Source of the DNA: Siniperca chuatsi
Lineage: Eukaryota; Chordata; Actinopteri; Centrarchiformes; Sinipercidae
Length of the DNA stretch: 64,000 nt
NCBI RefSeq assembly: GCF_020085105.1
Contig: NC_058063.1
Coordinates: 6,482,501-6,546,500 of the forward strand
Reading direction: 5' to 3'
Shown here: piece by piece, positions 6,307 through 60,190 of the stretch
Layout: each line of letters opens with the position of its first letter
Position numbering within the stretch: the first letter of the stretch is position 1
The notes under the pieces: model-generated
What the model saw: the letters and a program-made list of their open reading frames with translations, nothing else
What the model was told of the DNA's origin: nothing
Databases searched by the model: none
Position numbers and translations under genes: made by a program

Positions 6307-7828
6307 CTTTACACGGGAGTACACACATTCATCTTCTGTGTCGTCCCTCTGTTTTCTTGATCTGCTGGCCTTGTTTACCCTTAGAGCAGCGTAATGGAGA
6401 TTATCCTCATTATTGTAATCCTAGCAATGAAATATAAAAGAGTAAATAACAATATGGTACTCGACAGAAATGAGAAACAAATTCAACAGAAATTGTTAGG
6501 ATATAAAATATATATTTAAATGGTAATAGAATTGTTAATCTAGACAGAAAATACCTCTGCATTTGTTGTGGAGGAAGCAGAAAATCTCACGAAAGACTCT
6601 GAAAAACAATTTTAAAGCTGTGATTCTATAATGACACGTTCAGCAATTACACACTGTAGATACAAACAGTACCATTTACCTCTACATTGGCCGTTGTTTC
6701 TCTTACTCATAATGTACAGTGAGAAAGCCAGTAAAACACTCAGGATGGTAGTGAATGTCAAAGCGCCAATCAAGAAATACACCAAGACAAGAGAGTCTTT
6801 CTCATCTGCAGAGACGGAGACATTACAGAGGAGATTTTTTTAAAACTTTGTGTTCATCAAATGTTTAGTTAGAGAGTAACCATAACTATTTATCAGATAA
6901 AACAACTTCTGCTAGAAAGTTACTTACGTTCAAAGTCCAGCTTGGTCCCATTTCCAAACAGTATGTGTCCACATGAGGCAACAGCACAGTAGTAGGTCCC
7001 AGCATGAGAAAGATTCAGACTCTTCAATGGCAAGTTGTAGAAACAGGTGTGTGTTTGTGTGTTGAGTTTCCTCTCACACTGATCATTCCTGCCTCCATGG
7101 GTGTACATGAGTCCTGGATGAGATTCTTCAGAGTTCCTGAACCAGTAAACACTGTGTTCTCCATCACAGGTCCCAGTGTGTACTGTACAGTTCAGAGTCA
7201 CAGAGCCTCCTGGCTGGATGGTCTCAGATGCTGACTGATGGACCGAAGCTTGGATGTTCAAACCTGAACCCTTTACACTGACAATAGTCCCCTCAACTTC
7301 AAATTTGACTGAAAAGCTACTTGCACAGTAGTATGTAGCTGAGTCTGAAATGTGTAAATCTGAGATCTTCAAGTGATTTTTACCTTTTTCAGTATCCAAT
7401 GTGAAGCGTGGATTGTTCTTGAATTCATCATAAAAAATGCCTTTTTTATTAGACATGTCATTGGTAGAGATGAGTCTTGGTTTCTGTCCCAGAGTTTGCT
7501 TATACCAATAAAATATTACATCTTCTACGCCATCTTCATAGAAACATAGCAAAGTTATGCTATCACCAATATTAGCTGATACAAAACCACTCTCTTGAAG
7601 AACCGATGAGGACAGATCAGTCATCTGAGCTGAAGTGATAGGAGAGACAGAGCAAATACACAATTAATTCAATGTGACAGTAAGTATGTTATACTGAATA
7701 AATGATTAGAAGCAATGACACTTAGAGTGACCAAATAGATACAAATGGAGGCAAAAAAAAAACAACTCACCCATTTTCCCCAAGAACAAATATGTCAGAT
7801 AGAAAACAAACGTTGGAGATGTCATCAT
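6301..7828 (-). CDS. NITR gene 1, inhibitory-type, 349 aa
   Basis: Predicted surface immune receptor of the teleost NITR family. Exons (complement): 7771-7828 leader, 6928-7629 V+I, 6680-6805 transmembrane, 6555-6598 linker, 6301-6420 tail. All junctions are GT-AG and the phases match. Signal peptide about 1-19 (MMTSPTFVFYLTY). V domain about 21-140 has C48, W61 and DSATYYC (C121) with a weak J-like FEVEGTIVSV. I domain about 143-252 has six Cys (167, 174, 204, 215, 234, 239) and a perfect J-like FGNGTKL. TM about 259-286 is uncharged. The tail has ITIM LHYAAL (Y320) and ITIM-like CVYSRV (Y344). CDR2-like TNDMS groups it with the genes at 31184 and 36531. Ligand is unknown. Orthology to named NITR subfamilies is not determined. 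Confidence 0.92.
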
Positions 7829-8450
7829 GGTCAAATTGCTGACTTGAGTGAAAAGAATCTTGATCTTTTCTCCACTCTTCACAGACAAGACTGTGTTTGA
7901 TTGGCCAACCTGAAGTGACACTATATGACCTATTAAGGAAACATGATCACATGCTCACTGCCACATATAGTGTCAATTTCAGTTCTTTTGAAGACTCACT
8001 TGGTGACAGGTATATGAAGAACATAAAGGCTCTTTGACTTGACATTAGATTTAAAATCACCTAAATATAAACAACTATACATCCACACCCATTTAACACC
8101 ACACTGATCTCACTGATGGGCCATTTTCACTTTACATGTTTGGTTAATATTTGCTTTCTTTAACAGTACAGGAAAGGGACATAAGGATGAGGACAAGGAT
8201 AACAAAAAACTCTTGTTTGAAAACAAATTGGTTATCCAATATCCAATTATTAACATTTTCCTTAAATCAAATTCTTTCTTGATAGTGTTTTAGTCAGCAT
8301 TTTTCCTGTAATGGCCATTCAGTGTATTTACCTTCTGTAATTAACTCTGTATAGTAGTTTGTTGCTAATGGCAGGTTCCCCCATTCTCATGCTGGATTCA
8401 AATTACCTGCATATTTACAAGGTATTCATGGGAAATGACGCATGCATGTA
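7829..8450. other. 5' flank of NITR gene 1
   Basis: Conserved upstream region shared with the flanks at 14627-15240 and 24527-25200. Apart from the CCAAT block no further element was recognised. Confidence 0.5.
7899..7908 (-). promoter_or_regulatory. Conserved CCAAT box upstream of NITR gene 1
   Basis: The minus strand reads TTGGCCAATC about 70 bp upstream of the ATG. The same position holds it in other genes: 14697-14706, 24597-24606, 37508-37517, 42790-42799 and 54341-54350. The gene at 58631 has the variant CTGGCCAATC at 60261-60270. It lies in a well-conserved block that includes AAGAGTGGAGAAAAGATC. An NF-Y type role is inferred. No TATA box was convincingly placed. Confidence 0.5.
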
Positions 8451-8454
8451 ATCC

Positions 8455-8589
8455 AGCATTACCATTTGTAACTGTCACCAAGAGCAAGCACTTTGCCAAC
8501 AGTGGCAAGAAAAAACCTTCTTTTAAGGGTCAGAAACCTCGACCAGAACCAGACTCAGGGTGGGCGGCCATCTGCCGCTGCTGTGTTGG

Positions 8590-8622
<33 letters not shown>

Positions 8623-10211: not shown

Positions 10212-10705
10212 CAGGTGCCCATGAACACAGGTGCGGGTTTGTGTTGAGTTTCCTCTCACACTGATCATTCCTGCCTCCATGGGTGTACATGAGTCCTGGA
10301 TGAGATTCTTCAGAGTTTCTGAACCAGTAAACACTGTGTTCTCCATCACAGGTCCCAGTGTGTACTGTACAGTTCAGAGTCACAGAGCCTCCTGGCTGGA
10401 TGGTCTCAGATGCTGACTGATGGACCAAAGCTTGGATGTTCAAACCTGAACCTGAACCCTTTACACTGACAGTAATGCCCTCTGCCAATTCAATTGTTAC
10501 AAAAAAGCTGATTCTGAAATGAGTAATGCTGAGATCTTCAAGTGGTTTTTACCATTTTCAGTATCCAATGTGAAGCATGGATTGTCATTTCATGTAGAAG
10601 GTAGAGATGAGTCTTGATTTCTGTCCGAGAGTTTGCTTATATCAGGAAAATCTTGCTACCACGTCATCTTCATAGAAACATTGCAAAGTTACGCTGTCAC
10701 CATGA
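10212..10705 (-). pseudogene. NITR pseudogene, partial V-I exon
   Basis: The minus strand codes a clear I-domain segment (IQPGGSVTLNC, CDGEHSVYWFRNSEE, GGRNDQCERK) preceded by a degraded V domain. The end of the I domain and all transmembrane and tail exons are missing. The V part lacks the YYC region and breaks near its N terminus, where it fuses directly to promoter-like sequence (10705-10765). Shared V-region features (the GTTACAAAAAAGCT tract and GCATGGATTGTCATTT) pair it with the pseudogene at 33311. Confidence 0.88.
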
Positions 10706-10769
10706 ATTCATGTTTGAATTGCTGACTTGAGAGAAAAGAATCTCGATCTTTTCACTCAGCTGATCTGCA

Positions 10770-13129: not shown

Positions 13130-14626
13130 TTATTGCTTTACACGGGAGTACACACATTCATCTTCTGTGTCGTCCCTCTGTCTTCTTGATCTGCTGGCCT
13201 TGTTCACCCTTACAGCAGCGTAATGGAGATTATCTTCATTTTTGTAATCCTAGCAATGACATGAAAACAAATTCAACAGAAATTGTTAGGATATAAAATA
13301 TATATTTAAATGGTAATAGAATTATTAATCTAGACAAAAAATACCTCTGCATTTGTTGCGGAGGGAGCTGAAAATCTCACGCAAGATTCTGAAAAACAAT
13401 TTTAAAGCTGTGATTCTATAATGACATGTTCAGCAATTACACACTGTAGATACAAACAGTACCATTTACCTCTACATTGGCCGCTGTTTCTCTTACTCAT
13501 AATGTACAGTGAGAAAGCCAGTAAAACACTCAGGATGGTGGTGAATGTCAAAGCGCCAATCAAGAAATACACCAAGACAAGAGAGTCTTTCTCATCTGCA
13601 GAGAAGGAGACATTACAAAGGAGATTTTTTTAAAACATTGTGTTCATCTTATGTTTAGTTAGAGAGTAACCATAACTATAAATCAGATAAAACAACTTCT
13701 GCTAGAAAGTTACTTACACTTAATGTCCAGCTTGGCCCTGTTTCCAAACAGTATGTGTCCACATGAGGCAACAGCACAGTAGTTGGTCTCAGCATGAGAA
13801 AGATTCAGGCTCGTCAGTGGCAAGTTGTAGAAACAGGTGTGTGTTTGTGTGTTGGGTTTCCTCTCACACTGATCATTCCTGCCTCCATGGGTGTACATGA
13901 GTCCTGGATGAGATTCTTCAGAGTTCCTGAACCAGTAAACACTGTGTTCTCCATCACAGGTCCCAGTGTGTACTGTACAGTTCAGAGTCACAGAGCCTCC
14001 TGGCTGGATGGTCACAGATGCTGACTGATGGACCGAAGCTTGGATGTTCAAACCTGAACCCTTTACACTGACAGTAATGCCCTCTGCAAATTCAAATATT
14101 TCTGAAAAGCTACTTGCGCAGTAGTATGTAGCTGAGTCTGATATATGTAAATCTGAGATTTTCAAGTGATTTTTACCTTTTTCAGTATCCAATGTGAAGC
14201 GTGGATTATTCTCGCATTCATCATAAAATTTGCCATTTTTATCAAACATGTAGAAGGTAGAGATGAGTCTTGGTTTCTGTCCCAGAGTTTGCTTGTACCA
14301 GGAATATCTTGCTACCATGTCATCTTCATAGAAACATCGCAAAGTTAAGCTTTCACCAACATTAGCTGATACAAAACCACTCTCTTGACGAACTGATGAG
14401 AACAGATTAGTCATCTGAGCTGAAGTGACAGGAGAGACAAAGCAAATACACAATTAATTTAATGGAACAGTAAGTATATTATACTGAAAAAATGATTAGC
14501 AAGCAATGACACTTAGAATGACCATACACTCTAAAAGATACAAATGGAGGCAAAAAAACACAACTCACCCATTTTCCCCAAGAACAAACATGTCAGATAG
14601 AAAACAAACGTTGGAGATGTCATCAT
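13130..14626 (-). CDS. NITR gene 2, inhibitory-type, 349 aa
   Basis: Exons (complement): 14569-14626, 13718-14419, 13470-13595, 13345-13388, 13130-13249, same phases as gene 1. The V domain has CDR2-like STFYMFDKN and J-like FAEGITVSV. The I domain departs from its sisters. The conserved AGTYYC before the last core Cys reads AETNYC, so the tyrosine-corner Tyr and the Gly are lost. The J-like motif reads FGNRAKL instead of FGNGTKL, a change shared with the gene at 22997. The uncharged TM is followed by ITIM LHYAAV and ITIM-like CVYSRV. The reading frame is open throughout. Folding of the I domain may be affected; this is inferred. Confidence 0.9.
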
Positions 14627-15240: not shown

Positions 15241-15244
15241 TACT

Positions 15245-15721: not shown

Positions 15722-15905
15722 TGGCGAAGCGTATTTTCCTCAAGAACGAACATGTCAGATAGAAAACAAATTTTGGAGATATCATTGTGACTGAGAGAAA
15801 AAAAATCTTGATCTTTTCTCCACTCTTCACAGACAAGACTGTGTTTGGTTGGCCAACCTGAAGTGACACTGTATGTCCTATTAAGGAAACATGATCACAT
15901 GTTCA
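15722..15905 (-). pseudogene. Orphan NITR leader exon, second copy
   Basis: Nearly identical to 1-185: leader-like minus-strand sequence without a splice donor and with CCAAC instead of CCAAT. It marks the left border of the second duplication unit of about 9.9 kb. Confidence 0.75.
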
Positions 15906-16329
15906 CTGCCACCTATAGTGTCAAATTTGGTTCTTGAGAATCTTTGCATGTTGAGAAGTATATGAAGAACATAATGGCTTCTCAACTTTGTCAACAATGG
16001 CAGTAGCTTTAAACTGAACAAAATGTTTTGAACCATAGTCATCATCACTAATGTAAGATTCTGCCTTAATGCTGATCTCACTGATGAGCCAAAACCAACC
16101 CGTTCTCATTCCCAGGTCGTCATATACTGACATTTTGTCACGCCCCTTGGCGTCTCATATAGATGCATGTGGTACCATTTAGTGACTGTATGAGACGTAC
16201 CAGGCTTTCAATTAAACTCCAATGTAAAACCATCTGCGGCAATATTAAACACTCAGAGGAAATGCTCCGGGCCGTCCATTCACTTCAATATTGACCTGAC
16301 CATGATGCTATAAGACACTGTGAGCATCA

Positions 16330-16634: not shown

Positions 16635-19600
16635 TATTTATATAGTGCCAATTCATTGCACTTTTCCTATAGAACAGGTCTAGACCGTACTCTTTATAAT
16701 ATTATTTACAGAGACCCAACAAATCCCACCATTAGCAAGCACAGGCGACAGTGGCAAGAAAAAACTAACTAACAGGCAGAAACCTTGGACAGAACCAGAC
16801 TCAATGGTGGGTGGCCATCTGCCGCTGCCATGTTACGTTTTGAGAGAGAGATAGAGGTAGAGAGAGAGAGAGAGAGAGAGGGAGAGAGGTTTGGGGGGAG
16901 AAGGAAGCACAATGCAAATACCACTTAGAATTTTAAAATAGTAATAATGCAATGGTAGTGGTAACATTAATGTTAATAAATTAATAATAGTAGGATTGGC
17001 AGTTATAGGAATAATAATGACAGAATTAGTAACATAGCCAATACAAATAACTGCAGTAGCAGTTGTCGAGCAGGAACACAGGGGCAGCAAGTGGCCCACA
17101 ACCACAGATCCAGTCTCTGCAGCTCCGGAGGTATAAATACCTGCTGAAAGCAACAGAAGGAGAGAGGAGAGAAACGAGAAAGCACAGAACTACGGGAGAG
17201 AGAAGATGTTGAGTTAGTAACATGCAGTAATGGGATAAAAATGCATACAGATGGAGAGGGAGAGGAGGAGATAGGAAAGAGGTGCATCATGGGAAGTCTC
17301 CCAGCAGTGTAGGCCTATAGCAGCATAGCTAAGGGATGGTTCAGGACTCATCCAAGCCATCCCTAACCTATAAGCTTTATCAAAGAGTCAAGTCTTAAGC
17401 CTACTCTTAAATATGGATATGGTGTCTGCCTCCTGACCCCAAAACTGGGATCTGATTCCACAAGAGAGGAGCTTGATAACTGAAGGCTCTGGCTCCCGTT
17501 CTACTTTTTGAGACTCTAGGAACCACAAGTAACCCTGCATTCTAGGAGTGCAGTGTTCTAGTCGGGTAATACGGTATTATGAGCTCTTTAAGATGCGATG
17601 GTGCCTGACCATTAAGAGCTTTGTAGGTGAGGAGAAGGACTTTAAATTCTATTCTGGATTTTACAGGGAGCCAGTGCAGAGAGGCTAATATTGGAGAAAG
17701 ATGATCTCTTTTCCTAGTTCTTGTCAGTGCACGTCCCGCAGCATTCTGGATTAAATGGAGACTCTTAAGGGACTTTTTCAGGCAGCCTGATAATAAGGAA
17801 TTGCAATAGTCCAACCTAGAAGTAACAAATGCATGGACTAGTTTTTCAGCATCATTTTGAGACAGGATGTGCCTGATTTTTGCAATGTTGTGTAGGTGAA
17901 AGAAGGCAGTCCTTGAAGTTTGTTTCATGTGGCAGTTAAAGGATAAATCCTGATCAAAGATAACTCTGAGGTTCCTTACGGTGGTGCTAGAGTCCAGGGC
18001 AATGCCATCTAGAGCAACTATGTCTTTAGATAATGTGTCTCTGAGGTGTTTGGGGCCAAGTACAAAAACTTCAGTTTTGAGTGTAACATCAGAAAATTGC
18101 AGGTCATCCAGGTTTTTATGTCTAAGTTTTGCTAACTGATAGTTTCATCTGGCTTGATCGATATAATTGGGTATCATCCGCATAACAATGAAAGTTTATG
18201 GAGTGTTTCCTAATAATATTGCCTAAGGGAAGCATATATAAGGTGAATAGAATCGGTCCAAGCAAGGAACCTTGTGGAACTCTGTGACTAACTAGGATGT
18301 GATGATCAATGGTGTCGAATGCAGCTCTAAGATCTAACAGAACAAGTACAGAGACAAGTCCATTGTCTGATGCAATTAAAAGGTCATTTGTAATTTTCAT
18401 CAGTGCTTTCTCTGTGCTATGATGCACTCTAAATCCTGACTGAAAATCCTCAAATAAACTATTGTTATTCAGAAAGTCACACAACTGACTGGCGACTGCT
18501 TTCTCAAGGATCTTAGAGAGAAAGGGAAGGTTAGATATAAGTCTATAGTTGGCTAAAATGTCTTTAAGCAGCCTTGTTGGAATGGGGTCTAAGAGACAGT
18601 TCGATGGCTTAGATTAATTAATCGTCGAAGTTAGCTGATGAAGGTCGATAGGAGCAAAGCAGTCAAAATGTATATCAGGTTTTACAGTTGTTTTTAAAGT
18701 TCCTGTGTTTGAAGATAAACTGGTACTAGTTGAGGGCAGGACGTGATGAATTTTTTTCTCTAATAGTTAAAATTTTATTATTAAAGAAGCTCATGAAGTC
18801 ATTCCTACTGAAGACTATAGGAATACATGGCTCAATAGAGCTGTGATTCTCTGTCAGTCTGGCTACAGTGCTGAAAAGAAACCTGGGGTTGTTTTTATTT
18901 TCCTTTATTAATGATGAGTAGTAGTAGGCTGCTCTGGCATTACGGAGGGCCTTCCTATATGTTCCAAGACCATCTTGCCAGACTAAATAAGATTCTTCCA
19001 GGTTGTTGGAATGCCATTTCCTTTCAAGTTTTGGCGATGTTTGCTTTAATTTGTGGGTTTGGAGGTTATACCATGGAGCTAACCTTCTTAGTGTTATTGT
19101 CTTCTTTTTAGAACGACGATAGAATCGAGTGTCGTTCGCAGTGAGCGTGCAGCACTATCAAAAAGATGGTCAATTTGATGACAGAGATCTGATGTTTAAG
19201 AGTCCACATTTAATTGTCCTATTTTGTTGCGCTATTTCAGCGTTTTTGTTTAGGTTTTTATGTATAATTCCTCTTCTGTTAACTTTTGGTTTTAATAATT
19301 TAAGTGGTCGAGGGGCCAGACACTGTCACTAAAGAGTTTCCCTTTGTGGATAAATAAAGTATTTCTGATTCTAAAGAGTTTTGGGTGGGTAACTGCTCTG
19401 GAACCGCAGAGAAGCGTGTAGGAATGCAACTCTGCTTCCTGGTCTCAACTCTGTTGTCATGGTTTAGGTCAACTAATGAACTTGGTCAGATTTCTAGATA
19501 TGAGAGCTGCTCCATCCAAAGTGAGATGAATGCCGTCTCTCCTTATAAAGACCAGGTCTTCTCCAAAAAGTCTGCCAATAATCTACAAAGCCCACATCGT

Positions 19601-23004: not shown

Positions 23005-24526
23005 TTACACGGGAGTACACACATCCAACTTCTGTGTCGTCCCTCTTCTTGATCTGCTGGCCTTGTTCACCCTTACAGCAGCGTAATGGAGATTATCCTC
23101 ATTTTTGTAATCCTAGCAATGAAATATAAAACAATAAATCACGATATGGTACACGACAGACATGAAAACAAATTCAACAGAAATTGTTAGGATATAAAAT
23201 ATATATTTAAATGGTAATAGAATTATTAATCTAGACAGAAAATACCTCTGCATTTGTTGTGGAGGAAGCTGAAAATCTCACGCAAGATTCTGAAAAACAA
23301 TTTTAAAGCTGTGATTCTATAATGACATGTTCAGTAATTACACACTGTAGATACAAACAGTACCATTTACCTCTACATTGGCCGCTGTTTCTCTTACTCA
23401 TAATGTACAGTGAGAAAGCCAGTAAAACACTCAGGATGGTGGTGAATGTCAAAGCGCCAATTAAGAAATACACCAAGACAAGAGAGTCTTTCTCATCTGC
23501 AGAGACGAAGACATTACAGAGGAGATTTTTTTTAAACGTTATGTTCATCTTAAGTTTAGTTAGAGAGTAACCATAACTATAAATCAGATAAAACAACTTC
23601 TTCTAGAAAGTTACTTACACTTAATGTCCAGCTTGGCCCTGTTTCCAAACAGTATGTGTCCACATGAGGCAACAGCACAGTAGTAGGTCCCAGCATGAGA
23701 AAGATTCAGACTCGTCAGTGGCAAGTTGTAGAAACAGGTGTGTGTTTGTGTGTTGGGTTTCCTCTCACACTGATCATTCTTTCCTCCATGGGTGTACATG
23801 AGTCCTGGATGAGATTCTTCAGAGTTTCTGAACCAGTAAACACTGTGTTCTCCATCACAGGTCCTAGTGTGTACTGTACAGTTCAGAGTCTCAGAGCTTC
23901 CTGGCTGGATGGTCTCAGATGCTGACTGATGGACCGAAGCTTGGATGTTCAAACCTGAACCCTTTACACTGACAGTAATGCCCTCCGCAAATTCAAATAT
24001 TTGTGAAAAGCTACTTGCACAGTAGTATGTAGCTGAGTCTGAAATGTGTAAATCTGAGATTTTCAAGTGATTTTTACCTTTTTCAATATCCAATGTGAAG
24101 CGTGGATTGTTCTTGAATTCATCATAAAATGTGCCTTTTTTTTTAGACATGTAGAAGGTAGAGATGAGTCTTGGTTTCTGTCCCAGAGTTTGCTTATACC
24201 AGGAAAATCTTGCTACCACGTCACCTTCATAGAAACATTGCAAAGTTACGCTGTCACCAATATTAACTGATACAAAACCACTCTCTTGACGAACTGATGA
24301 GATCAGATTAGTCATCTGAGCTGAAGTGATAGGAGAGACAAAGCAAATACACAATTAATTTAATGTGACAGTAAGTAAATTATACTTTATAAATGATAAG
24401 AAGAAATGACACTTGAGTGACCATACACTCTAAAAGATACAAATGGAGGCAAAAAAAACACAACTCACCCATTTTCCCCAAGAACAAACATGTCAGATAG
24501 AAAACAAACGTTGGAGATGTCATCAT
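23005..24526 (-). CDS. NITR gene 3, with shortened cytoplasmic tail, 345 aa
   Basis: Exons (complement): 24469-24526, 23619-24320, 23371-23496, 23246-23289, 23005-23112. The V domain has STFYMSKKK and FAEGITVSV. The I domain has PGSSETLNC where the sisters have PGGSVTLNC, plus FGNRAKL. The tail exon lacks 4 bp relative to every paralogue (GTCT lost near 23046), which shifts the frame after RSRR. The protein ends LDVCTPV, so the ITIM LHYAAV stays and the distal CVYSRV motif is lost. The old stop position is 22997-22999. A real allele, an assembly error or a decaying gene are all possible. Confidence 0.88.
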
Positions 24527-25639: not shown

Positions 25640-25826
25640 TGGCGAAGCGTATTTTCCTCAAGAATGAACATGTCAGATAGAAAACAAACTTTGGAGATAT
25701 CATTGTGACTGAGAGAAAAAAAAAATCTTGATCTTTTCTCCACTCTTCACAGACAAGACTGTGTTTGGTTGGCCAACCTGAAGTGACACTGTATGTCCTA
25801 TTAAGGAAACATGATCACATGTTCAC
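25640..25826 (-). pseudogene. Orphan NITR leader exon, third copy
   Basis: As at 1 and 15722. It opens the third duplication unit. Confidence 0.75.
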
Positions 25827-26249
25827 TGCCACCTATAGTGTCAAATTTGGTTCTTGAGAATCTTTGCATGTTGAGAAGTATATGAAGAACATAATGGCTT
25901 CTCAACTTTGTCAACAATGGCAGTAGCTTTAAAATGAACAAAATGTTTTGAACCATAGTCATCATCACTAATGTAAGATTGTGCCTTAATGCTGATCTCA
26001 CTGATGAGCCAAACCAACCCTTTCTCATTCCCAGGTCGTCATATACCGACATTTTGTCACGCCCCTTGGCGTCTCATACAGATGCACATGGTACCATTTA
26101 GTGTCTGTATGAGACGCACCAGGCTTTCAATTAAACTCCAATGTAAAACCATCTGCGGCAATATTAAACACTCAGAGGAAATGCTCTGGGCCGTCCATTC
26201 ACTCCAATATTGACCTGACCGAACGCTATAAGACTCTGTGAGCATCAGT

Positions 26250-30570: not shown

Positions 30571-31744
30571 TTATTGCTTTACACGGGAGTAAACACATTC
30601 ATCTTCTGTGTCGTCCCTCTGTCTTCTTGATCTGCTGGCCTTGTTCACCCTTACAGCAGCGTAATGGAGATTATCCTCATTTTTGTAATCCTAGCAATGA
30701 AATATAAAACAGTAAATAATATGGTACACAACAGAAATTAAAACAAATTCAACAGAAATTGTTATGATATTAAACATATTTAAATGGTAATAGAATTGTT
30801 AATCTAGACAGAAAATACCTCTGCATTTGTTGTGGAGGAAGCTGAAAATCTCACGCAAGATTCTGAAAAACAATTTTAAAGCTGTGATTCTATAATGACA
30901 TGTTCAGTAATTACACACTGTAGATACAAACAGTACCATTTACCTCTACATTGGCCGCTGTTTCTCTTACTCATAATGTACAGTGAGAAAGCCAGTAAAA
31001 CACTCAGGATGGTGGTGAATGTCAAAGCGCCAATTAAGAAAGACACCAAGACAAGAGAGTCTTTCTCATCTGCAGAGACGAAGACATTACAGAGGAGATT
31101 TTTTTTAAACGTTATGTTCATCTTAAGTTTAGTTAGAGAGTAACCATAACTATATATCAGATAAAACAACTTCTTCTGGAAAGTTACTTACACTTAAAGT
31201 CCAGCTTGGTCCCGTTTCCAAACAGTATGTGTCCACATGAGGCAACAGCACAGTAGTAGGTCCCAGCATGAGAAAGATTCAGGCTCGTCAGTGGCAAGTT
31301 GTAGAAACAGGTGTGTGTTTGTGTGTTGGGTTTCCTCTCACACTGATCATTCCTGCCTCCATGGGTGTACATGAGTCCTGGATGAGATTCTTCAGAGTTT
31401 CTGAACCAGTAAACACTGTGTTCTCCATCACAGGTCCCAGTGTGTACTGTACAGTTCAGAGTCACAGAGCCTCCTGGCTGGATGGTCTCAGATGCTGACT
31501 GATGGACCGAAGCTTGGATGTTCAAACCTGAACCCTTTACACTGACAATAGTCCCCTCAACTTCAAATTTGACTGAAAAGCTACTTGCACAGTAGTATGT
31601 AGCTGAGTCTGAAATGTGTAAATCTGAGATCTTCAGGTGATTTTTACCTTTTTCAATATCCAGTGTGAAGCGTGGATTGTTCTTATATTTATCATAAAAA
31701 ATGCCCTTAGACATGTCATTGGTAGAGATGGGTCTTGGTTTCTG
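30571..31744 (-). pseudogene. NITR gene 4, 5'-truncated
   Basis: Tail (30571-30690), linker (30819-30862) and TM (30944-31069) exons are complete and in phase. The I domain and V framework 3 (31192 upward) are intact. The V exon stops at 31744, in the stretch coding QKPR, where it joins a LINE fragment. V framework 1, the CDR1-like loop, the splice acceptor and the leader are missing. The remaining V part (STNDMS, FSVKFEVEGTIVSV) matches the genes at 6301 and 35908. Without a leader it is unlikely to make a receptor. Confidence 0.88.
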
Positions 31745-33310: not shown

Positions 33311-33841
33311 CAGCAAACCTGAACCCTTTACACTGGCAATTCAGTTGTTACAAAAAAGCTACTTGCGCAGTAGTAAGCGGCTGAGTCTGAAATGTGTAAA
33401 TCTGAGAACTTCAGGTGGTTTTTACCATTTTCACTATCAAATGTGAAGCATGGATTGTCATTTTTTTTTTTTCAAACATGTAGAAGGTAGAGATAAGTCT
33501 TGGTTTCTGTCCCAGAGTTTCCTTATACCAGGAATATCTTGTTACCACGTCACCTAACCAACTTTAGCTGATACAAAACCACTCTCTTGACGAACTGATG
33601 ACGACAGATTAGTCATCTGAGCTGAAGTGACAGGAGAGACAGAGCAAAAACACAATTAATTTAATGTGACAGTAAGTATATTATACTGAATAAATGATTA
33701 GAAGTAATGACACTTAGGTGACCATACACTGAAGAGAAGAAACACACAGAAGAAACAAATGGAGGCAAAAAAACACAACTCACCCATTTTCCCCAAGAAC
33801 AAACATGCCAGACAGAAAACAAACGTTGGAGATGTCATCAT
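33311..33841 (-). pseudogene. NITR 5' half: leader exon plus broken V domain
   Basis: The leader exon 33784-33841 is intact (MMTSPTFVFCLACLFLG) with a good donor. The V exon starts at 33621 with QMTNLSSSVRQESGFVSA. It loses about 30 bp around the first core Cys and stops after the YYC/CDR3 region. There is no I domain, TM or tail. It is not simply the missing half of the gene at 30571, because both carry V framework 3. Its relative is the pseudogene at 10212. Confidence 0.85.
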
Positions 33842-35907: not shown

Positions 35908-37437
35908 TTATTGCTTTACACGGGAGTAAACACATTCATCTTCTGTGTCGTCCCTCTGTCTTCTTGATCTGCTGGCCTTGTTCACCCTTACAGCAGCGTA
36001 ATGGAGATTATCCTCATTTTTGTAATCCTAGCAATGAAATATAAAACAATAAATCACGATATGGTACACGACCGACATGAAAACAAATTCAACAGAAATT
36101 GTTAGGATATAAAATATATTTAAATGGTAATAGAATTGTTAATCTAGACAGAAAATACCTCTGCATTTGTTGCGGAGGAAGCTGAAAATCTCACGCAAGA
36201 TTCTGAAAAACAATTTTAAAGCTGTGATTCTATAATGACATGTTCAGCAATTACACACTGTAGATACAAACAGTACCATTTACCTCTACATTGGCCGCTG
36301 TTTCTCTTACTCATAATGTACAGTGAGAAAGCCAGTAAAACACTCAGGATGGTGGTGAATGTCAAAGCGCCAATCAAGAAATACACCAAGACAAGAGAGT
36401 CTTTCTCATCTGCAGAGACGGAGACATTACAGAGGAGATATTTTAAAACGTTGTGTTCATCTTATGTTTAGTTAGAGAGTAACCATAACTATATATCAGA
36501 TAAAACAACTTCTGCTGGGAATTTACTTACACTTAATGTCCAGCTTGGTCCCGTTTCCAAACAGTATGTGTCCACATGAGGCAACAGCACAGTAGTAGGT
36601 CCCAGCATGAGAAAGATTCAGGCTCTTCAATGGCAAGTTGTAGAAACAGGTGTATGTTTGTGTGTTGGGTTTCCTCTCACACTGATCATTCTTGCCTCCA
36701 TGGGTGTATATGAGTCCTGGATGAGATTCTTCAGAGTTTCTGAACCAGTAAACACTGTGTTCTCCATCACAGGTCCCAGTGTGTACTGTACAGTTCAGAG
36801 TCACAGAGCCTCCTGGCTGGATGGTCTCAGATGCTGACTGATGGACCGAAGCTTGGATGTTCAAACCTGAACCCTTTACACTGACAATAGTCCCCTCAAC
36901 TTCAAATTTGACTGAAAAGCTACTTGCACAGTAGTATGTAGCTGAGTCTGAAATGTGTAAATCTGAGATCTTCAGGTGATTTTTACCTTTTTCAATATCC
37001 AATGTGAAGCGTGGATTGTTCTTGAATTCATCATAAAAAAAAGCCTTTTTTTTAGACATGTCATTGGTAGAGATGAGTCTTGGTTTCTGTCCCAGAGTTT
37101 GCTTATACCAATAAAATATTACGTCTTCTATGTCATCTTCATAGAAACATCGCAAAGTTACGCTGTCACCAACATTAGCTGATACAAAACCACTCTCTTG
37201 ACGAACTGATGAGGACAGATTAGTCATCTGAGCTGAAGTGACAGGAGAGACAGAGCAAATACACAATTAATTTAATGTGACAGTAAGTATGTTATACTGA
37301 ATAAATTATTAGAAGCAATGACACTTAGGTGACCATACACTCTAAAAGATACAAATGGAGGCAAAAAAACACAACTCACCCATTTTCCCCAAGAACAAAC
37401 ATGCCAGATAAAAAACAAACGTTGGAGTTATTATCAT
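35908..37437 (-). CDS. NITR gene 5, inhibitory-type, 349 aa
   Basis: Exons (complement): 37380-37437, 36531-37232, 36284-36409, 36159-36202, 35908-36027. The leader start is MIITPTFVFYLAC, because the usual ATG-ATG-ACA has become ATG-ATA-ATA, which leaves a single ATG. The V domain resembles gene 1 (EDVIFYWYKQ, STNDMS, FEVEGTIVSV) but differs in the loop KKKAFFYDE. The I domain is complete with six Cys and FGNGTKL. The tail has LHYAAV and CVYSRV. Stop and AATAAA overlap as in gene 1. Confidence 0.92.
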
Positions 37438-38210: not shown

Positions 38211-39003
38211 CTATTGCTTTACACTAAAGTACACACATTCACTCCAGGTGTCGTCTGTCTGCCTTCTTGATCTGTTGATCTTTATGTCTGTTAAAGCAAT
38301 GTAATAGTCTTCTTTTTGGTAACCCTGGACATGAGAAACAGTACTTTACAATGAGGCACATGGCAGAAATATAAACATTGTGCATTGAAACTATTGTGCT
38401 ATAAAAATGTGTTTGAGTGGTTATACAGTAGCTCATCTAAGAAGATAATACCTTTCTATTTGTTTTGGAGGAATCTGCATGTCTTGCCTGAGACTCTGAA
38501 AAACAGAACGAAACCATTACTACGATGCCATGTTCAGCGAATACATGCTATAGACAGAAACAGTACCACTAACCTGTCCAAAGGCAGCTGTTTCTCTTGT
38601 TCATCATGCGCACTAAGAAAGCCAGTAAAACACTCAGGATGGTGGTGAATGCAAAAGCCCCATGCCAGAAATACACCAACACAAGAGACTCTTCCTCATC
38701 TGCAGAGAGACAGAAACTAGGAGACATTTGCAGCAGTGTTTTTTACTCTGCGATCATATTTTGTTTGTTTGATTAGGAATTATTCATAACTATTTATCAG
38801 ATAAAACAACTTCTGCTAGAAAGTTACTTACGCTCAAAGTCCAGCTTGGTCCCGTTTCCAAACAGTATGTGTCCACATGAGGCAACAGCACAGTAGTAGG
38901 TCCCAGCATGAGAAAGATTCAGGCTCTTTGTAGAAACAGGTGTGTGTTTGTGTGTTGGGTTTCCTCTCACACTGATCATTCCTGCCTCCATGGGTGTACA
39001 TGG
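38211..39003 (-). pseudogene. NITR gene 6, 3' half only
   Basis: Complete 3' exons: tail 38211-38324 (37 codons plus TAG), linker 38452-38495, TM 38574-38699. The partial I domain at 38832-39003 has an internal 11-bp loss and ends in the stretch coding MYTHGG. V domain and leader are absent, and the break joins directly to 5'-flank sequence. The TM (VYFWHGAFAFTTILSVLLAF) and tail (DYYIAL, CVYFSV) are the most diverged in the left half, so this is an older lineage. D at the -2 position makes the first tail motif a weak ITIM. Confidence 0.85.
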
Positions 39004-39364
39004 AGGCAGGTATGCTCCGTAACTTTGACAACAATGGCATTACCTTTTAAACTGACCAAATTATAAATAAACATAGTCATCATCACTAATGTAAGATCAT
39101 GCCTTCATGCTGATCTCACTGATGAGCCATACTCACTCTATATACTCTCTTTTTTCTTTCTCCAAATCTACAGAAACAAAATAGGTGTTAGTTGTGTCGG
39201 TGGTCTTACCATCAGCTCTTGGAAATATCATAAATAGCTTATTTCCTCCTATGTAGTTTTTTATGCTTGTATTGTCCTTTATTTCCAGGTTCAAGCGCTT
39301 AGTTAAAAACAGTTGCAATGTTTTTTGTCACACAGAGAAAACTGTCCAAATATACAATATTGTT

Positions 39365-41228: not shown

Positions 41229-42719
41229 CTACTGCTTTATACTTGAGTATACACATTCAGTCTTGGTGTTGTTCTTTTGTCTTCTGGATCTGTTGACCTT
41301 GTGTTCCCTTAAAGCTGCGTAATGAATGTTTTCTTCATTTTGGTCACCCTGATAATAAAATATTAAACAATAAATCACAAGATAGAAAAGAAGAGAGAAA
41401 TTAAAACTGTATCCAAAAAACGGTTGCACTGTGAAAATGTTTGAATGGTAACACGATAGTTTATCTAAACCAAAAATACCTCTGCATTTGTTGGGGAGGG
41501 AGCTGAAAATCTTGCTTGAGACTCTGAAAAAGAATGAAAAGTGCCCTTACTATAATATCATGTTTAGTGAGTACACACCGTCAACTACAAAGAATAGCAG
41601 TTACAGTACCTGTACATTTGTAGTTGTTTCTCGTGTTGATTACACACATTGAGAAGGCCAGTAAAACACTCAGGATGGTGGTGAATGCCAAAGCCACACT
41701 CAAGAAATACACCATGACAAGAGAGTCCCCCTTATCTGTAGAGAGACAGACACCAGGAGACATTACAAAGCTTGAGTTTTAATAGAGCATATTATACTTA
41801 AGACAACCCCTGCTAGAAAGTTACTTACGTTCAAAGTCCAGCTTGGTCCCGTTTCCAAACAGTATGTGTCCACATGCGGCAACAGCACAGTAGTAGGTCC
41901 CAGCATGAGAAAGATTCAGACTCGTCAGTGGCAAGTTGTAGAAACAGGTGTGTGTTTGTGTGTTGGGTTTCCTCTCACACTGATCATTCCTGCCTCCATG
42001 GGTGTACATGAGTCCTGGATGAGATTCTTCAGAGTTCCTGAACCAGTAAACGCTGTGTTCTCCATCACAGGTCCCAGTGTGTACTGTACAGTTCAGAGTC
42101 ACAGAGCCTCCTGGCTGGATGGTCTCAGATGCTGACTGATGGACCGAAGCTTGGATGTTCAAACCTGAACCCTTTACACTGACAGTAGTGCCCTCCTCAA
42201 ATTTGAATTTGTACAATTGACTACTCGCACAGTAGTATGTAGCTGAGTCTGAAACGTGCAGATATGTTATCTTCAGGTGATTTTTACCTTTTTCAGTATC
42301 CAGTGCGAAGCGTGGATTGCTGTTGAATTCATCATAAAAAGTTCCATTTCTTTCGTACTTATAGAAGGTAGAGATGAGTCTTGGTTTCTGTCCCAGAGTT
42401 TGTTTGTACCAGTAAAATCTTGCTGCAACATCACCTTCATAGAAACATCGCAAAGTCAAGTTGTCCCCTGTTTTGACCGATACAAAACCACTCTCTTGAC
42501 GAACAAATTTCAGATTAGTCATCTGAGCTGAAGTGATAGAAGAGACAAAGTAAATGCACTATATGAACATATGAAAAACAAAGAAATATCAGAAGCAATG
42601 TCATGAGGAGTGGCCATACACTTTTAAAAATCCAAACTGCAGTCACATCAAAAAAACTCACCCATTTTTCCCAAGAATAAACATGTCAGATAGAAGACGA
42701 ACTTAGGAGATGTCATCAT
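41229..42719 (-). CDS. NITR gene 7, inhibitory-type, ~348 aa
   Basis: Exons (complement): 42662-42719, 41829-42527, 41610-41735, about 41481-41523, 41229-41348. The leader is MMTSPKFVFYLTC. The V domain is distinct (FVRQESGFVSVKTGDNLTL, STFYKYERN, YYCASSQLYKF) and ends in the better J-like FEEGTTVSV. The I domain is almost identical in DNA to the other genes, with AVAACGHIL for AVASCGHIL. TM MVYFLSVALAFTTILSVLL is uncharged. The tail has ITIM IHYAAL and CVYSSI. The linker exon sequence is 44 nt by alignment; my end coordinate may be off by one. Confidence 0.9.
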
Positions 42720-46108: not shown

Positions 46109-47616
46109 CTACTGCTTTATGCTGGAATACACGCATTCATTCTTAGTGTTGTTCCTCTGTCTTCTTGTTCCTTTGGCCTTGATTTCCCTTAAAGCAACAT
46201 AATGTAGGTCGTCTTGGTAACCCTGTTGACCAAATATAAATCACAATAGTGGACCTGTCAGAAGTGATGTGTTTTACAATAAAAATGTGTTTCAATTGTA
46301 ATTCAACAGTTGGTCAAAACAGACTCACCTCTTCATTTGCAGAAAATCTTGCTTGAGGCTCTGTCCAGAAAACACAGGAAATGGTATTTAATTTAAAAGC
46401 CATGCTTTCTAAATATACAAACAGCACTACTCACCTGTAGATTGGGAGCTGTTGATCTTGTACATTGAGAAAGCCAGTAAAACAACCAGGATGGTGGTGA
46501 ATGCCAAAGCGCCACTCAACATATACACAAAGACAAGAGAGTCCACCTCATCTGCAGAGATACAGGAGACATTACAGAGCTTTCAGCTTTTATTCTTCTG
46601 TTTATATCGAAGATGAGGTGTAACAGAATCACATTTTATCAGATGAGACGATCTCTGCTAGAAAGTTACTTACGCTTAAAGTCCAGCTTGGTCCCGTTTC
46701 CAAACAGTATGTGTCCACATGAAGCAACAGCACAGTAGTAGGTCCCAGCATGAGAAAGATTCAGACTCGTCAGTGGCAAGTTGTAGAAACAGGTGTGTGT
46801 TTGTGTGTTGGGTTTCCTCTCACACTGATCATTCTTGCCTCCATGGGTGTACATGAGTCCTGGATGAGATTCTTCAGAGTTCCTGAACCAGTAAACGCTG
46901 TGTTCTCCATCACAGGTCCCAGTGTGTACTGTACAGTTCAGAGTCACAGAGCCTCCTGGCTGGATGGTCTCAGATGCTGACTGATGGACCGAAGCTTGGA
47001 TGTTCAAACCTGAACCCTTTACACTGACAGTAATGCCCTCTGAAAACTCAAAAATAAACGTATAGCTACTTGCGCAGTAGTATGTAGCTGAGTCTGAAAT
47101 ATTTAAATCTGAGATCTTCAAGTGGTTTTTACCATTTTCAGTATCCAGTGTGAAGCGTGGATTTTTCTTGAATTCACCATGAAAAGAGCCATTTCTTTCA
47201 TACTTATAGAAGGTAGAGATGAGGTTCGGTTTCTGTCCCAGAGTTTGTTTATACCAGTAAAGCCTTGCAGCATCACCATCATAAAAACATCGCAAAGTTA
47301 CCTTGTCTCCAACATTAGCTGATACAAAACCACTCTCTTGGTGCACAGATGAGGACAATTTCAGTTCAGTTGTCCAAGCTGAAGTGAAATGAGAGACAAA
47401 CCAAATGCAAATTGCTAATTGATTTCTTGAATTGAAAATATATTACAATCAACACACAATGATTTGAAGCAATTTCATGAGAACCATACACGCTAAAAGA
47501 TACAAATTTGAACCACAAAAACACAACTCACCCGTTTTCCCCAAGAACAAACATGTGAGATAGAATGCAAACATCGTAGATGTCGTGTTCAAACTGCTGT
47601 GTTGAATGAAAAACAT
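46109..47616 (-). CDS. NITR gene 8, inhibitory-type, start codon shifted
   Basis: Exons (complement): leader 47532-47616 or -47574, V+I 46674-47378, TM 46435-46551, linker 46329-46360, tail 46109-46222. The ATG used by the paralogues reads ACG here. In-frame ATGs exist upstream at 47616 (MFFIQHSS, 350 aa) and downstream at 47574 (MFAFYLTC, 336 aa). I chose the longer. The linker is 12 bp and the TM exon 9 bp shorter than in most genes. The V domain starts with WTTELKLSSSVHQESGF and ends FSEGITVSV. The I domain has six Cys and FGNGTKL. The tail has LHYVAL and CVYSSI. Confidence 0.87.
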
Positions 47617-52671: not shown

Positions 52672-54268
52672 CTACTTCTTGACACTGGAGTACACGCATT
52701 CATTCTCAGGGTTTTTCCTCTGTCTTCTTGATCTGTTGGGAAGGTTAATACTTAAAGCAGCATAATGGAGGTTGTCGGCTTCTCTGGAACCCTGTTAACA
52801 AAATATATATAAATATTTCATAATATGGACCCTGAAAAAAATTAAAACAATGTCCAAAAAACAAAAACAATAATAAATAAATAATAATAATAATAAATAA
52901 TAATTAATAATAAATGCAATAAAAATGTGTTTGAATGGAAATTCACCAGGTAATTTGAAGAGAAAAATCTTACCTCAACGTTTGTTGTGGAGGTAGCTGA
53001 AAATCTTGCGTGAAACTCTGGTTGTTAAAATTAAGAAAAAAGCTGTTATATTCAAAAGCCATGTTCAATGGACACAGGCAGATTTAAACAGTGTTAGTTA
53101 GTGTACCTGTAGATTGTAAAATATTTCTCTTGTTCATCTTGTGGGCCAGTAAAACCAACAGGATGGCGGTGAATGCCAAAGCTCCACTTAAGAAATACAC
53201 CACGACAAAACAGTCCACCTCATCTGCAGAGAGACAGACATCAGAAACAGAGCTTTCAGCTTTTTTTCTATATGTTCATGTTAAGTTTGATTAAGGAGTA
53301 AACATGTATTTATCAGATGAGACAACCCTTGCTAGAAAGTTACTTACGCTTGTTACTTAAGTCCAGCTTGGTCCCGTTTCCAAACAGTATGTGTCCACAT
53401 GAAGCAACAGCACAGTAGTAGGTCCCAGCATGAGAAAGATTCAGGCTCGTCAGTGGCAAGTTGTAGAAACAGGTGTGTGTTTGTGTGTTGGGTTTCCTCT
53501 CACACTGATCATTCCTGCCTCCATGGGTGTACATGAGTCCTGGATGAGATTCTTCAGAGTTTCTGAACCAGTAAACGCTGTGTTCTCCATCACAGGTCCC
53601 AGTGTGTACTGTACAGTTCAGAGTCACAGAGCCTCCTGGCTGGATGGTCTCAGATGCTGACTGATGGACCGAAGCTTGGATGTTCAAACCTGAACCCTTT
53701 ACATTGACAGTAATGACCTCCGCAAATTCAAATGTGTGTGATTCACTACTCACACAGTAGTAAGTAGCTGAGTCTGAAATACGTAAATCCGAGATCCTCA
53801 AGTGATTCTTACCATTTCCACTATCCAATGTGAAGCGTATATTCTTCTGGAATTCATGATAAAAAGTGCCTTTCTCATCAAACACATAGAAGGTAGAGAC
53901 GATTCTTGGTTTCTGTCCCAGAGTTTGTTTGTACCAGTAAAGCCTTTTTGAAATTTCACCTTCATAAAAACATTGTAAAGTCAACTTGTCTCCTGCTTTA
54001 ACTGATAAAAAACCACTCGCTTGACGCTGAGACGAAGACAATTGCAGTTCAGTCATCTGAGCTGAAGTGAAATGAGAGACAAAGCTAATACACAGTTACG
54101 TTTATGTGATAGAATTCAGCGTAATCAGTACTTTAGAAATATTCAAAACATTTGAGGAGTGACCTTTCATTATATTAAAAAATAAAAACTGGAGTCATAA
54201 AAACACAACTCACCTATTTTCCCCAAGAACAAACATGTCAGGTAGAAAACAAACTTTGGAGATGTCAT
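52672..54268 (-). CDS. NITR gene 9, inhibitory-type, 349 aa
   Basis: Exons (complement): 54214-54268, 53348-54061, 53107-53223, 52974-53017, 52672-52791. There is a single ATG (MTSPKFVFYLTC). The V domain is the most diverged of the middle genes (LQLSSSQRQASGFLSVKAGD, STFYVFDEKG, YYCVSSESHTF). Its J-like motif has lost the Gly (FAEVITVNV). The I domain has six Cys and FGNGTKL and ends LDLSNK, a few residues longer. The 117-bp TM exon codes VVVYFLSGALAFTAILLVLL and then HKMNKR. The tail has LHYAAL and CVYSSV, ending VKK. Confidence 0.9.
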
Positions 54269-56500: not shown

Positions 56501-57516
56501 AATAAAGTATCCACTACGGATATCGTTAGCAATGCAAGATCTGGACACGATGTTGTTGCTAGCAAGCTCCTGTAGAAGTCAGTCTCTAACACGCTAACGC
56601 TAACTGCAGAAACCTGTTGCTCTTTTATAATATTGCAAAAGACTTGAGCCAAAGGTAAAAAAGAAAACTACCTTTTTATGCCGCCTCTTTAATCAACTTT
56701 CCTTCCCACTTCCAAAACAAACACTCTCTCATCTGGTCTATCTGTCTCGGGTCGAAAATCAAGCTGTTCCACTTAGCGCTCCCCCTGGAGGCCTGAAGAA
56801 CTTCCGTTGTGTAGACTGGATATGCAGCGTTTTTTTGTTGCTTTTGTTTTTGGGGTTTGTGTGTTTTTGATTTTGAATTGTTTCTGTATTTGCAGCGTGT
56901 TTGCTGTTAATGTGTTTGTTTTGGCTTTCTGCTGCACTTATTTTTTTTTCATTTGAAGGACATTTCAGTTGTATTTGTTTTGGATTTTTGTTTGTCTTTT
57001 GGAACTGGCATTGTTTCTGAAGCTTCAGCACATTTCTCCTAATGGAAATTGTTTGTGTATTTGCAGTGCATTCGTGTATTTGGTTGTGTTGTGTGTATTT
57101 GTAGCACGTTTGTGTATTTGGTTGTGTTGTGTGTATTTGCAGCAAGTTTGTGTATTTGCAGCGTGTTTCCTAAATGCTGTGCATGTGTTGTCAAATTAAT
57201 GCAGATGTTTTCTTAATTTACATGTGTTTTCTTAAGTTGCAGTGCTAAAGTTAGCGTTTTTAGTTTTTAGAGAATTAAAACAAGAAGACAAACTTGAATA
57301 TTCTGCATTATTTACTTGGTGGTTTCTAACCTACAGTCCTGCGGAGTTGGTAGAGACAGCTACAGAAATTTCAAAGTCTTTGTTACCGTGCAAAATTTGT
57401 GTGGGCCCGCCACTACTCATACTTCAGGTGAATGCAAGTAGTGGAAGCACTAGAGGAAAGGTTATGTGGTCAGGGTTTTGGTTAGGTTCAACTTTATACA
57501 GACATTTTTGAATATC
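56501..57516. other. Intergenic with GTATTTGCAGC-type tandem phrases
   Basis: 56880-57180 repeats phrases such as TTTGTGTATTTGCAGC and TTTGGTTGTGTTGTG. 57222-57245 matches one arm of the 39365 MITE, so a decayed relative is likely. No gene is seen. Confidence 0.45.
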
Positions 57517-58140
57517 TCAGCAACTATGGCGCAGTATTTTGTTTCCAAATATAATACAATATAGTACAAGAACAATATAAGTCTGAACTTTACCAGAAAG
57601 ATATTTGAACCAGGTGTAAGCAGAATCATCAAGACCAATGGAAATCATCATATATATTATGATCAACAGCATCAAAAGCCTTGGACAGATCTGCAAAGAG
57701 TGCAGCACAATGTTGCTTTTTATCAAGCAAGTTAACAATGTTATCCACAACAGCAGTTGAAGCAGTTATTGTAATATGAATAGGTATCCTGAACTCTGTG
57801 GATGACGGACAGTATTTTCTTCCAGAAAGGCATGTAGGCTACTGTGAGTTGACCAGTGATTCTGCAATTTTAGACAGAGAGAAAAGCTTGGATTTAGGTC
57901 GATAGTTGTTGAGGTCATATGCGTCACCACCTTTGTGTAATTAAACTGCCTGAGTTGTTTTCCATATTACAGGAAATTATCCAGAGGTAAAAGTTGAATT
58001 AAAAATATGCACAAGTGAAGCTGTAACAATAGTGAGGCCTAGGTACTGCAGGTCAAATGCGTCCTGATCAAGAGACGTTCCTATGTTCTGGTGTATTATA
58101 TATCCAGAGTATTTAACAGGTCTGAGAGAACATTTTCTAT
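57517..58140 (-). mobile_element. Degenerate LINE reverse-transcriptase fragment
   Basis: Minus-strand pieces IGLDDSAYTWFKYLSGKVQT and, across frames, NNYRPKSKLFSLSKI and KATLCCTLCRS. These are RT motifs of a different LINE lineage from the one in the left half. Confidence 0.6.
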
Positions 58141-58630
58141 TATGGTTGAACTGGTTGAACTAGGAAGGATACGCTCTTGTAATGGTGGGGTAGCAAAGCC
58201 TGATCCTTCACCCTGCTCTGCAACATGATCAATCCAACAAGATCAACAAGAAGTGTCCCATGAATATGTTAGCTTTATTTAATCATTAATGACATAGAAT
58301 GGACATATGAAAACACACACTGTACATGATTCAGTTTGGTTGAATTCCATGGGTCCAGATAATGTTGTTACATCCAATGCAAACTCCCACACCGTACTTT
58401 CCGACTCGCAACATAAAGGGCGCACTTAATCTTGCATTGGTACTGAATGTTGGCATTGGGCGTAAATCATGAGGAGCACAATCATTCAATACGAATATAA
58501 TTATTGGGAATACTGCGCTGCATCTTTTGACTGCAGACCACAAATATATCTCAAAATCTACATCTAAATCCTCATTACACTTGAAATACCACCAAATCCA
58601 ATTTTATTGAAAAAGTTGAAATGTCCACTT
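58141..58630. other. 3' flank of NITR gene 10
   Basis: An AATAAA on the minus strand at 58613-58618 lies 13 bp beyond the stop. The flank resembles 52180-52670. No gene is seen. Confidence 0.45.
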
Positions 58631-60190
58631 CTAATGCTTTACACTAGAGTACACACATTCACGCATGGTTTGATCTCTCTGTCTTCTTGATTTGTTGGGC
58701 AGGTTAACACTTAAAGCCGCATAATGGAGGTTGTCTGCGTCTTGGTAACCCTGGAAACAAAATATGTAGAACTGGATTAGGATATTGATCCTGACAGAAA
58801 AAAAAAAAAAAAAAAAACTTACAAAACAATTGGTTGTTGGGCAAAAGAAAAGATGTTTAAATAGTAATTCATGTATTATTAAGATATATTTCACCTCTGC
58901 ATTTATTGTGGAAGGAGCTGATAATCTTGCGTGAGACTCTGGTTGTAAAACAAAGAAAATACTCTTTTATTCAAAAGTTATAGTTAGTGAATACACGCTA
59001 TCAGATAGAGTAACACTTACCTGTACATTGGCAGTTGTTTTTCTTGATCAACTTGTATGCTAAGAAAGGCAACAGAACAACTAGGATGATAGTGAATGTC
59101 AAAGCTCCACTCAAGAAATACACCAAGAGAAGAGAATCCACCTCATCTGCAGAGAGCCAAACATCAGAAACAGAGCTTTCAGCTTTTATCTGTATTCATA
59201 CAAAGTTTGATTGGAAAGTAACCCTAAGTATCTATTGATCAAATGGGACAACCTTTGTTCGAAAGTTACTTACCTTCAAAGTCCAGCTTGGTCCCGTTTC
59301 CAAACAGTATGTGTCCACATGCAGCAACAGCACAGTAGTAGGTCCCAGCATGAGAAAGATTCAGACTCGTCAGTGGCAAGTTGTAGACACAGGTGTGTGT
59401 TTGTGTGTTGGGTTTCCTCTCACACTGATCATTCCTGCCTCCATGGGTGTACATGAGTCCTGGATGAGATTCTTCAGAGTTTCTGAACCAGTAAACGCTG
59501 TGTTCTCCATCACAGGTCCCAGTGTGTACTGTACAGTTCAGAGTCACAGAGCCTCCTGGCTGGATGGTCTCAGATGCTGACTGATGCACCGAAGCTTGGA
59601 TGTTCAAACCTGAACCCTTTACACTGACAGTAGTGCCCTCCGCAAAAGTCAAGACTAATGTATAACTAATTGCGCAGTAGTAAGTAGCTGAGTCTGAAAT
59701 GCGCAAATCAAAGATTGTCAAGCGATTTTTACCATTTTCAGTATCCACTGTGAAGCGTGGATTGTTCTTGAATTCATGATAAAAAGTGGTTCTTGTATCA
59801 TACACATAGATGTTAGAGATGAGCCTTGGTTTCTGTTGCAGAGTTTGCTTATACCAGTAAAGCCATGCTGAATCATCACCTTCATAGAAACATTGCAGAG
59901 TCACATTATCTCCAACATTGGCTGATACAAAACGTCTCTCTTGACGAACAGACAAGGAAAATTTCAGATCAGTCATCTGAGCTGAAGTGAAATGAGAGAA
60001 AAGTAAATACACAATTGATTAAATCGAATAGATTTAACGTAGTTATTATATTAAAATATATTAGAAGTATTTCCGTGAACAGTTGCTATAAACTAAAAGT
60101 GGGGCTGCTGGAGCCATCAAAACACAACTCACCTATTTCCCCCAAGAACAAGCATGCCAGATAGAAAACATACTTTGGAGATGTCATCAT
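58631..60190 (-). CDS. NITR gene 10, inhibitory-type, 351 aa
   Basis: Exons (complement): 60133-60190, 59274-59981, 59021-59146, 58895-58938, 58631-58750. The leader is MMTSPKYVFYLAC. The V domain has LSVRQERRFVSANVGDNVTL, SNIYVYDTR, YYCAISYTLVL and J-like FAEGTTVSV. It is well diverged from the left-hand genes, yet its I domain is almost the same at DNA level (CVYNLPL for CFYNLPL; AVAACGHIL). TM LLVYFLSGALTFTIILVVLL is uncharged. The tail has LHYAAL and CVYSSV, ending VKH and TAG. Confidence 0.91.

Follow-up and report, generated by a model that had tools for sequence, protein, structure and literature searches.

The 64,000-nucleotide window analysed here (positions 6482501-6546500 of Siniperca chuatsi contig NC_058063.1, called C22 below, in an assembly of 719 Mb and 65 contigs) contains part of a NITR gene cluster of the teleost type, which spans C22 from ~6.45 to 6.56 Mb. 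In one subfamily of this cluster the V and I domains are encoded together in a single exon, and comparison of the copies confirmed that the I half of this exon is homogenised while the V half is diverged. Among 14 intact exons, 8 in the window and 6 outside it, every one of the 91 pairs had a smaller silent divergence (dS) in I than in V; these pairs are not independent, as they represent about nine lineages. The silent-site island formed by I has sharp edges, the trees of the two halves are discordant, variants within I occur in mosaic combinations, and a comparable island is present in three more NITR subfamilies. Repeated ectopic gene conversion confined to the I domain is very probably the best explanation of these observations.

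The region analysed was the window with its flanks, 144 kb in total. It holds 16 full-length I copies of the fused V-I subfamily, of which nine lie inside the window, plus fragments. The V-I exons of the window are arranged in tandem, all on the minus strand, and every one listed in a preliminary description of this DNA was recovered. The features compared are given below in window coordinates.

6304..6420, minus strand: open frame of the immunoreceptor tyrosine-based inhibitory motif (ITIM)-like exon of g1; unhomogenised control (open-frame limits, not exon ends)
6615..6839, minus strand: open frame of the transmembrane (TM) exon of g1; unhomogenised control (open-frame limits, not exon ends)
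6935..7273, minus strand: I tract of g1, homogenised
7274..7627, minus strand: V part of g1, diverged
10219..10452, minus strand: recent-type pseudogene copy psi10, I tract without its 3' end
13725..14063, minus strand: I tract of g2
14064..14417, minus strand: V part of g2
23626..23964, minus strand: I tract of g3
23965..24318, minus strand: V part of g3
31199..31537, minus strand: I tract of p31, which has a truncated V (whole copy 31184-31777)
33337..33655, minus strand: psi33, a V-only pseudogene fragment with no matching I beside it
36538..36876, minus strand: I tract of g4
36877..37230, minus strand: V part of g4
38839..39019, minus strand: pseudogene psi38, 3' half of an I tract with one gap
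41836..42174, minus strand: I tract of older gene o1
42175..42525, minus strand: V part of older gene o1
46681..47019, minus strand: I tract of older gene o2
47020..47376, minus strand: V part of older gene o2 (5' end set from V length)
53361..53699, minus strand: I tract of older gene o3
53700..54059, minus strand: V part of older gene o3
59281..59619, minus strand: I tract of older gene o4
59620..59979, minus strand: V part of older gene o4

The V and I codons of the 14 intact exons were compared using Nei-Gojobori counts, leaving out n5 (frameshifted), p31 (truncated V), o8 (unconverted I), psi10, psi33, psi38 and the fragment fr39. Between lineages (51 pairs without n1 and o7), the median dS was 0.439 for V and 0.040 for I, with a pooled ratio of 8.5. 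The corresponding medians were 0.746 and 0.054 for n1 against 12 others, and 0.520 and 0.054 for o7 against 13 others. Among the six recent copies (g1-g4, n4 and n6; 15 pairs) the median was 0.133 for V and again 0.040 for I. Because the median for I is alike in the recent and between-lineage sets, I is about equally young in close and in distant pairs. Leaving out o7, distances in I were unrelated to those in V (Mantel r -0.11, p 0.68); with o7 included the correlation was 0.39 (p 0.077). Third codon positions compared between lineages in 48-bp windows differed by 0.25-0.38 across V and by 0.00-0.07 across I, with the drop at the V-I hinge. The proportion of differing silent sites (pS) in the same genes was 0.046 for I, 0.37 for V, 0.284 for the TM exon and 0.356 for the ITIM exon.

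A block of low divergence, fitted to nine lineages with g1 alone representing the six recent copies, runs from 4 bp before the start of I to 2 bp beyond its end (likelihood ratio 404); 8.4% of columns are variable within this block and 70.5% outside it. On the left side, a CDR3-like (third complementarity-determining region) stretch 30-50 bp upstream of I has a divergence of 0.46-0.49, and nucleotide diversity (pi) is 0.22-0.60 in the 1 kb before the V part, which includes the leader region and an intron. On the right side, pi in the 3' intron is 0.34-0.47. What we say of the introns rests on multiple-alignment divergence, because anchored alignment overstates identity: between lineages the aligned intron identity was ~0.78-0.80 over 300 bp, little above the 0.744 reached by shuffled controls. 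The preliminary description had claimed near-identical I parts beside differing V parts, introns and TM exons, with an abrupt change at the hinge and near the exon end, and had proposed a window plot of silent divergence as the check. Each of these claims stands: silent divergence falls sharply over I only, and the edges lie within 4 bp of the domain.

The two halves of the exon do not share a tree. In approximately unbiased (AU) tests the I data rejected the V tree (p 7.9e-5) and the V data rejected the I tree (p 1.3e-49). Within I, 46 of 91 informative site pairs were in conflict by the four-gamete criterion, with a minimum of 7 recombination events (Rmin); the p value of this count was 0.001 against 1000 simulations without recombination under uniform rates. 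Copy o7 has 14 differences from the majority sequence, all in the first 251 of its 339 bp, and looks like a mosaic, half converted.

Three further NITR subfamilies, in which I is a separate exon, have a similar island. In the same cluster, the pair out23/out35 has an intron between V and I, and a dS of 0.475 for V and 0.027 for I. This intron is positioned where the tract starts in the fused genes; on our reading, the fused-gene tract would match an old I exon to within ~8 bp on its left side. A second NITR-type cluster (C8:9018001-9162000 of the same assembly, G000; loci L017-L032) carries V and I in separate open frames on both strands. We used 11 of its 16 I matches, with a partial V only for 9052984; the other five were without a recognised V exon. 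The six minus-strand genes (C8A) gave a pooled pS of 0.280 for V and 0.053 for I, with I lower in 15 of 15 pairs, and the five plus-strand genes (C8B) gave 0.280 and 0.069, with I lower in 9 of 10. When identity was followed along eight pairs in a sliding window, the I exon was the most similar stretch; in the C8B pair 9025918/9119526 it is 0.94-1.00 identical and the adjoining introns are 0.28-0.54.

Conversion limited to I, as proposed in the preliminary description, is thus supported by silent divergence, discordant trees, mosaic variants and recurrence in three further subfamilies. It should be noted that several results weigh against it. The C8B pair 9059580/9048747 has a higher dS in I (0.082) than in V (0.065), and the left edge of the island is soft in some C8A pairs. 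Under strong rate variation the four-gamete count had a p value of only 0.025 (1000 simulations), and the pairwise homoplasy index (PHI) applied to I alone was not significant (p 0.064). The suggested GENECONV check gave a divided answer. A GENECONV-like permutation on the nine lineages alone detected 0 of 36 pairs; on this group the scan is blind, because the tract has been homogenised in all copies, which leaves I with just 29 of the 540 variable columns. When the unconverted o8 was added, 16 of 36 pairs reached a global p<0.05, although this run assumes exchangeable columns, and a slowly evolving I would likewise raise the number of matches. With o8 included, the longest shared run began at I or within 12 bp of it (<=12 bp) in 35 of 36 pairs; in the exception, o2/o5, it began 34 bp earlier and extended into I. 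Copy o8 (G000:C22:6561399-6561719) is a neighbouring NITR whose I is only ~50% identical in protein; it stands outside the exchange and serves as the unconverted control.

Other points of this kind concern composition, distance and the right edge. GC content at third codon positions (GC3) is 0.50 in I and 0.36 in V, but is equally high in the unconverted I of o8 (0.52), the TM exon (0.56) and the ITIM exon (0.49); GC3 is therefore not diagnostic, and we dropped it as a mark of conversion. Genes that lie closer together are hardly more alike in I: the correlation with physical distance is 0.15 (p 0.11) when o7 is left out and 0.24 (p 0.038) when it is included. Extended splice-site conservation could also mimic the fading of similarity over ~19 bp of the 3' intron, where pi is 0.07 and 0.18 before it rises to 0.38-0.44 (an ungapped count of eight lineages from which o5 was left out for an insertion). 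Finally, the evidence comes from a single species and from its assembled sequence.

The process that we propose is short-tract ectopic gene conversion at the DNA level, by which a segment of ~340 bp comprising I would be copied repeatedly between neighbouring genes. As a result, silent divergence between lineages is ~8 to 11 times lower in I than in the adjoining V. Confinement would follow if the tract were walled in by poor homology, to the left in the CDR3-like end of V and to the right in the diverged intron, and the I domain, which as a protein probably changes more slowly over long times, may stay similar enough for exchange to go on. In this account we are least sure of why the tract is confined.

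A variant compatible with this explanation holds that conversions do occur but persist in I alone, those reaching into V being eliminated by selection. We regard it as possible, though less likely than not. In its favour, V is most diverged in its CDR-like codons, whose limits were drawn by eye (dN 0.42; framework 0.17). Pooled dN/dS in these codons is nonetheless 0.54, below 1, with 0.39 in the framework, and the introns, TM exons and ITIM exons have diverged without any such reason. For the same reasons the proposal in the preliminary description that V diversity is kept by selection was not borne out: since introns, TM and ITIM exons have diverged as well, it is I, not V, that is exceptional.

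Four other causes were considered and rejected: RNA templates, constraint on the protein or on silent sites, assembly artefact, and replacement of V in recently duplicated genes. Templates of spliced RNA or cDNA would make homogenisation respect exon ends, and in the C8B pair 9025918/9119526 the island does stop where the I exon does, flanked by introns that align poorly. However, the V, TM and ITIM sequences are not homogenised, the left edge in the fused genes lies inside an exon, and the spill of similarity into the 3' intron fits DNA templates better than spliced RNA. This route is accordingly very improbable.

Purifying selection could in principle keep I identical, by acting on the protein or on silent sites that belong to a splicing or other RNA element, and between subfamilies the I protein is indeed more conserved (identity of ~44-58%, against ~24-46% for V). 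Its dN/dS of 0.49 is, however, not below that of V, so that in ratio I is not the more constrained part. Segregating sites among the 16 copies are spread 10/16/13 over codon positions 1/2/3. Silent sites of I are free to change, because 41-70% of them differ among this subfamily, o8, the out23 type and the two C8 types, all of one genome. Copies with a frameshifted (n5) or truncated (p31) V retain the same I. Constraint of either kind is extremely unlikely to be the cause.

Near-identical 340-bp blocks can draw misplaced short reads, and consensus building or short-read polishing might have made the I copies alike. Judged from the assembly itself, such an artefact is likewise hardly probable: 39 segregating sites persist in mosaic combinations among the 16 copies, and four subfamilies whose I sequences differ show the same pattern. 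Least credible is the idea that the genes are recent duplicates in which V was replaced or mutates fast and I shows their true age; the recent group is indeed young throughout (flanking 300 bp ~95% matched), but once different lineages are compared, the introns to either side have diverged at least as much as V, the TM and ITIM exons have diverged too, and the near-identical flanks of older genes that would favour such duplication were looked for and are not there.

The pseudogenes at 10212 (psi10) and 38832 (psi38) had been cited as sharing the tract. Their I sequences do match. The V of psi10 is 96% identical to that of g3 over 112 bp, which makes it a recent-type copy and a weak case. In psi38 only the 3' half of I is present, separated from its best match by 2 substitutions and one gap over 175 bp; a search of 1.5 kb revealed no V. 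A better case than either is n5, outside the window: its frameshifted V is 89% identical to o2 and ~80-84% to the next matches, and its I is up to 98.8% identical to other copies. The truncated p31 was absent from the preliminary description. A further piece, fr39, is a decayed fragment with 55 bp of I, at best 89% identical to other copies.

By their predicted architecture these genes are NITR genes. Pfam profiles matched g1 at 2e-24 (V-set) and 1.2e-12 (Ig_3), and both domains were also matched in o2 and o3, the three genes tested. V and I in a single exon, and six cysteines in the I domain, are features of a described NITR class (PMC2442602, in the sections available). Counted by eye, each I translation has six cysteines, except o7, which is without one of them. 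A J-like motif of the form FGXGTXL ends the domain, as FGNGTKLD in 12 of 15 translated copies and as FGNRAKLD in n6, g2 and g3; o8 was left out of this count for its out-of-frame translation. A pattern search of downstream open frames found a TM-like segment in 13 of 13 genes and an ITIM-like exon in 12 of 13. The uncharged TM core and ITIM-like tail are those of inhibitory NITRs, and the tail of g3 shows LHYAAV. Outside this 13-gene set, n4 (cluster positions 42542-41799) had neither a typical TM nor an ITIM-like exon within 2.6 kb downstream; either a defect or a longer intron could account for this. Searches of PDB sequences returned nearly only antibody-type Ig domains among the best 60 of 8993 and the best 60 of 2514 matches, and did not help in naming the family. 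A NITR-like gene on the plus strand at C22:6449460-6450601 was left out of the analysis.

Several other elements were observed in the window. Outside the V-I exons, a 300-bp block is repeated at 96-97% identity (77-376, 15797-16096 and 25717-26016) and possibly marks larger duplications near g2 and g3. Fragments resembling non-LTR (long terminal repeat) retrotransposons lie on the minus strand at 2549-3913 and 17542-19154. They include a reverse transcriptase match at 18122-18613 (2.8e-24), a weaker one at 2549-2932 (1.3e-6, just under the curated cut-off) and a weak endonuclease match at 3302-3913 (0.0035, below the cut-off); the stretch 17542-18144 was without a match. A tandem array of 19/38-bp units occupies 57050-57168.

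The NITR clusters of medaka and pufferfish share with the genes described here the V-I exon, the six I cysteines, the J-like ends and the ITIM tails, and have been explained by birth and death, with concerted evolution as the primary process deemed less likely (PMC2442602). That text contains no word starting with 'conversion' or 'homogen', and in the literature searched, with subscription papers outside its scope, we found no NITR report of I-domain homogenisation. NITRs have so far been read as a birth-and-death family; in the present genes concerted evolution affects only one half of the ectodomain, and a tree made from I or from the entire V-I exon therefore mixes two histories. With I present as a separate exon or fused to V in four subfamilies, these genes also offer a test bed for the edges of conversion tracts.

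It is conceivable, though doubtful, that NITRs reproduce, without rearrangement, the antigen-receptor plan of a variable plus a constant part, with conversion keeping a constant-like I alike within each subfamily, I binding a shared partner, and the I segment acting as the unit of exchange in all four subfamilies, be it a separate exon or fused to V. If so, each gene would carry its own constant-like copy of I while the V parts diversify, and homogenisation of I would be favoured by its binding to this putative partner.

Regional conversion itself is a known process. In the clustered protocadherins of fugu it acts on tandem genes, and within a subcluster the 3' part of the variable exon is ~99% identical in nucleotides and the 5' part ~60-80%, according to the sections available (PMC1852091). 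As in the NITRs, the boundary there is discrete and the converted regions differ between subclusters. Unlike NITRs, however, fugu protocadherins are neural adhesion proteins, the position of their boundary (EC4 or EC5) varies with the subcluster, and raised GC3, which is not diagnostic in the NITRs, was taken as a sign of conversion (PMC1852091). The CEACAM1 paralogues (PMC7042247) and Siglec-11/Siglec-16 (PMC5701461) are, like NITRs, immune receptors of the Ig superfamily with exon-biased or regional conversion. In the parts of those reports available, it is the ligand-binding end that is homogenised between inhibitory and activating partners. In the NITRs studied here, with their ITIM-like tails, the membrane-proximal I is homogenised and the V end diverges, so that a diverging V end joined to a shared membrane-proximal domain is the reverse of the CEACAM and Siglec cases.

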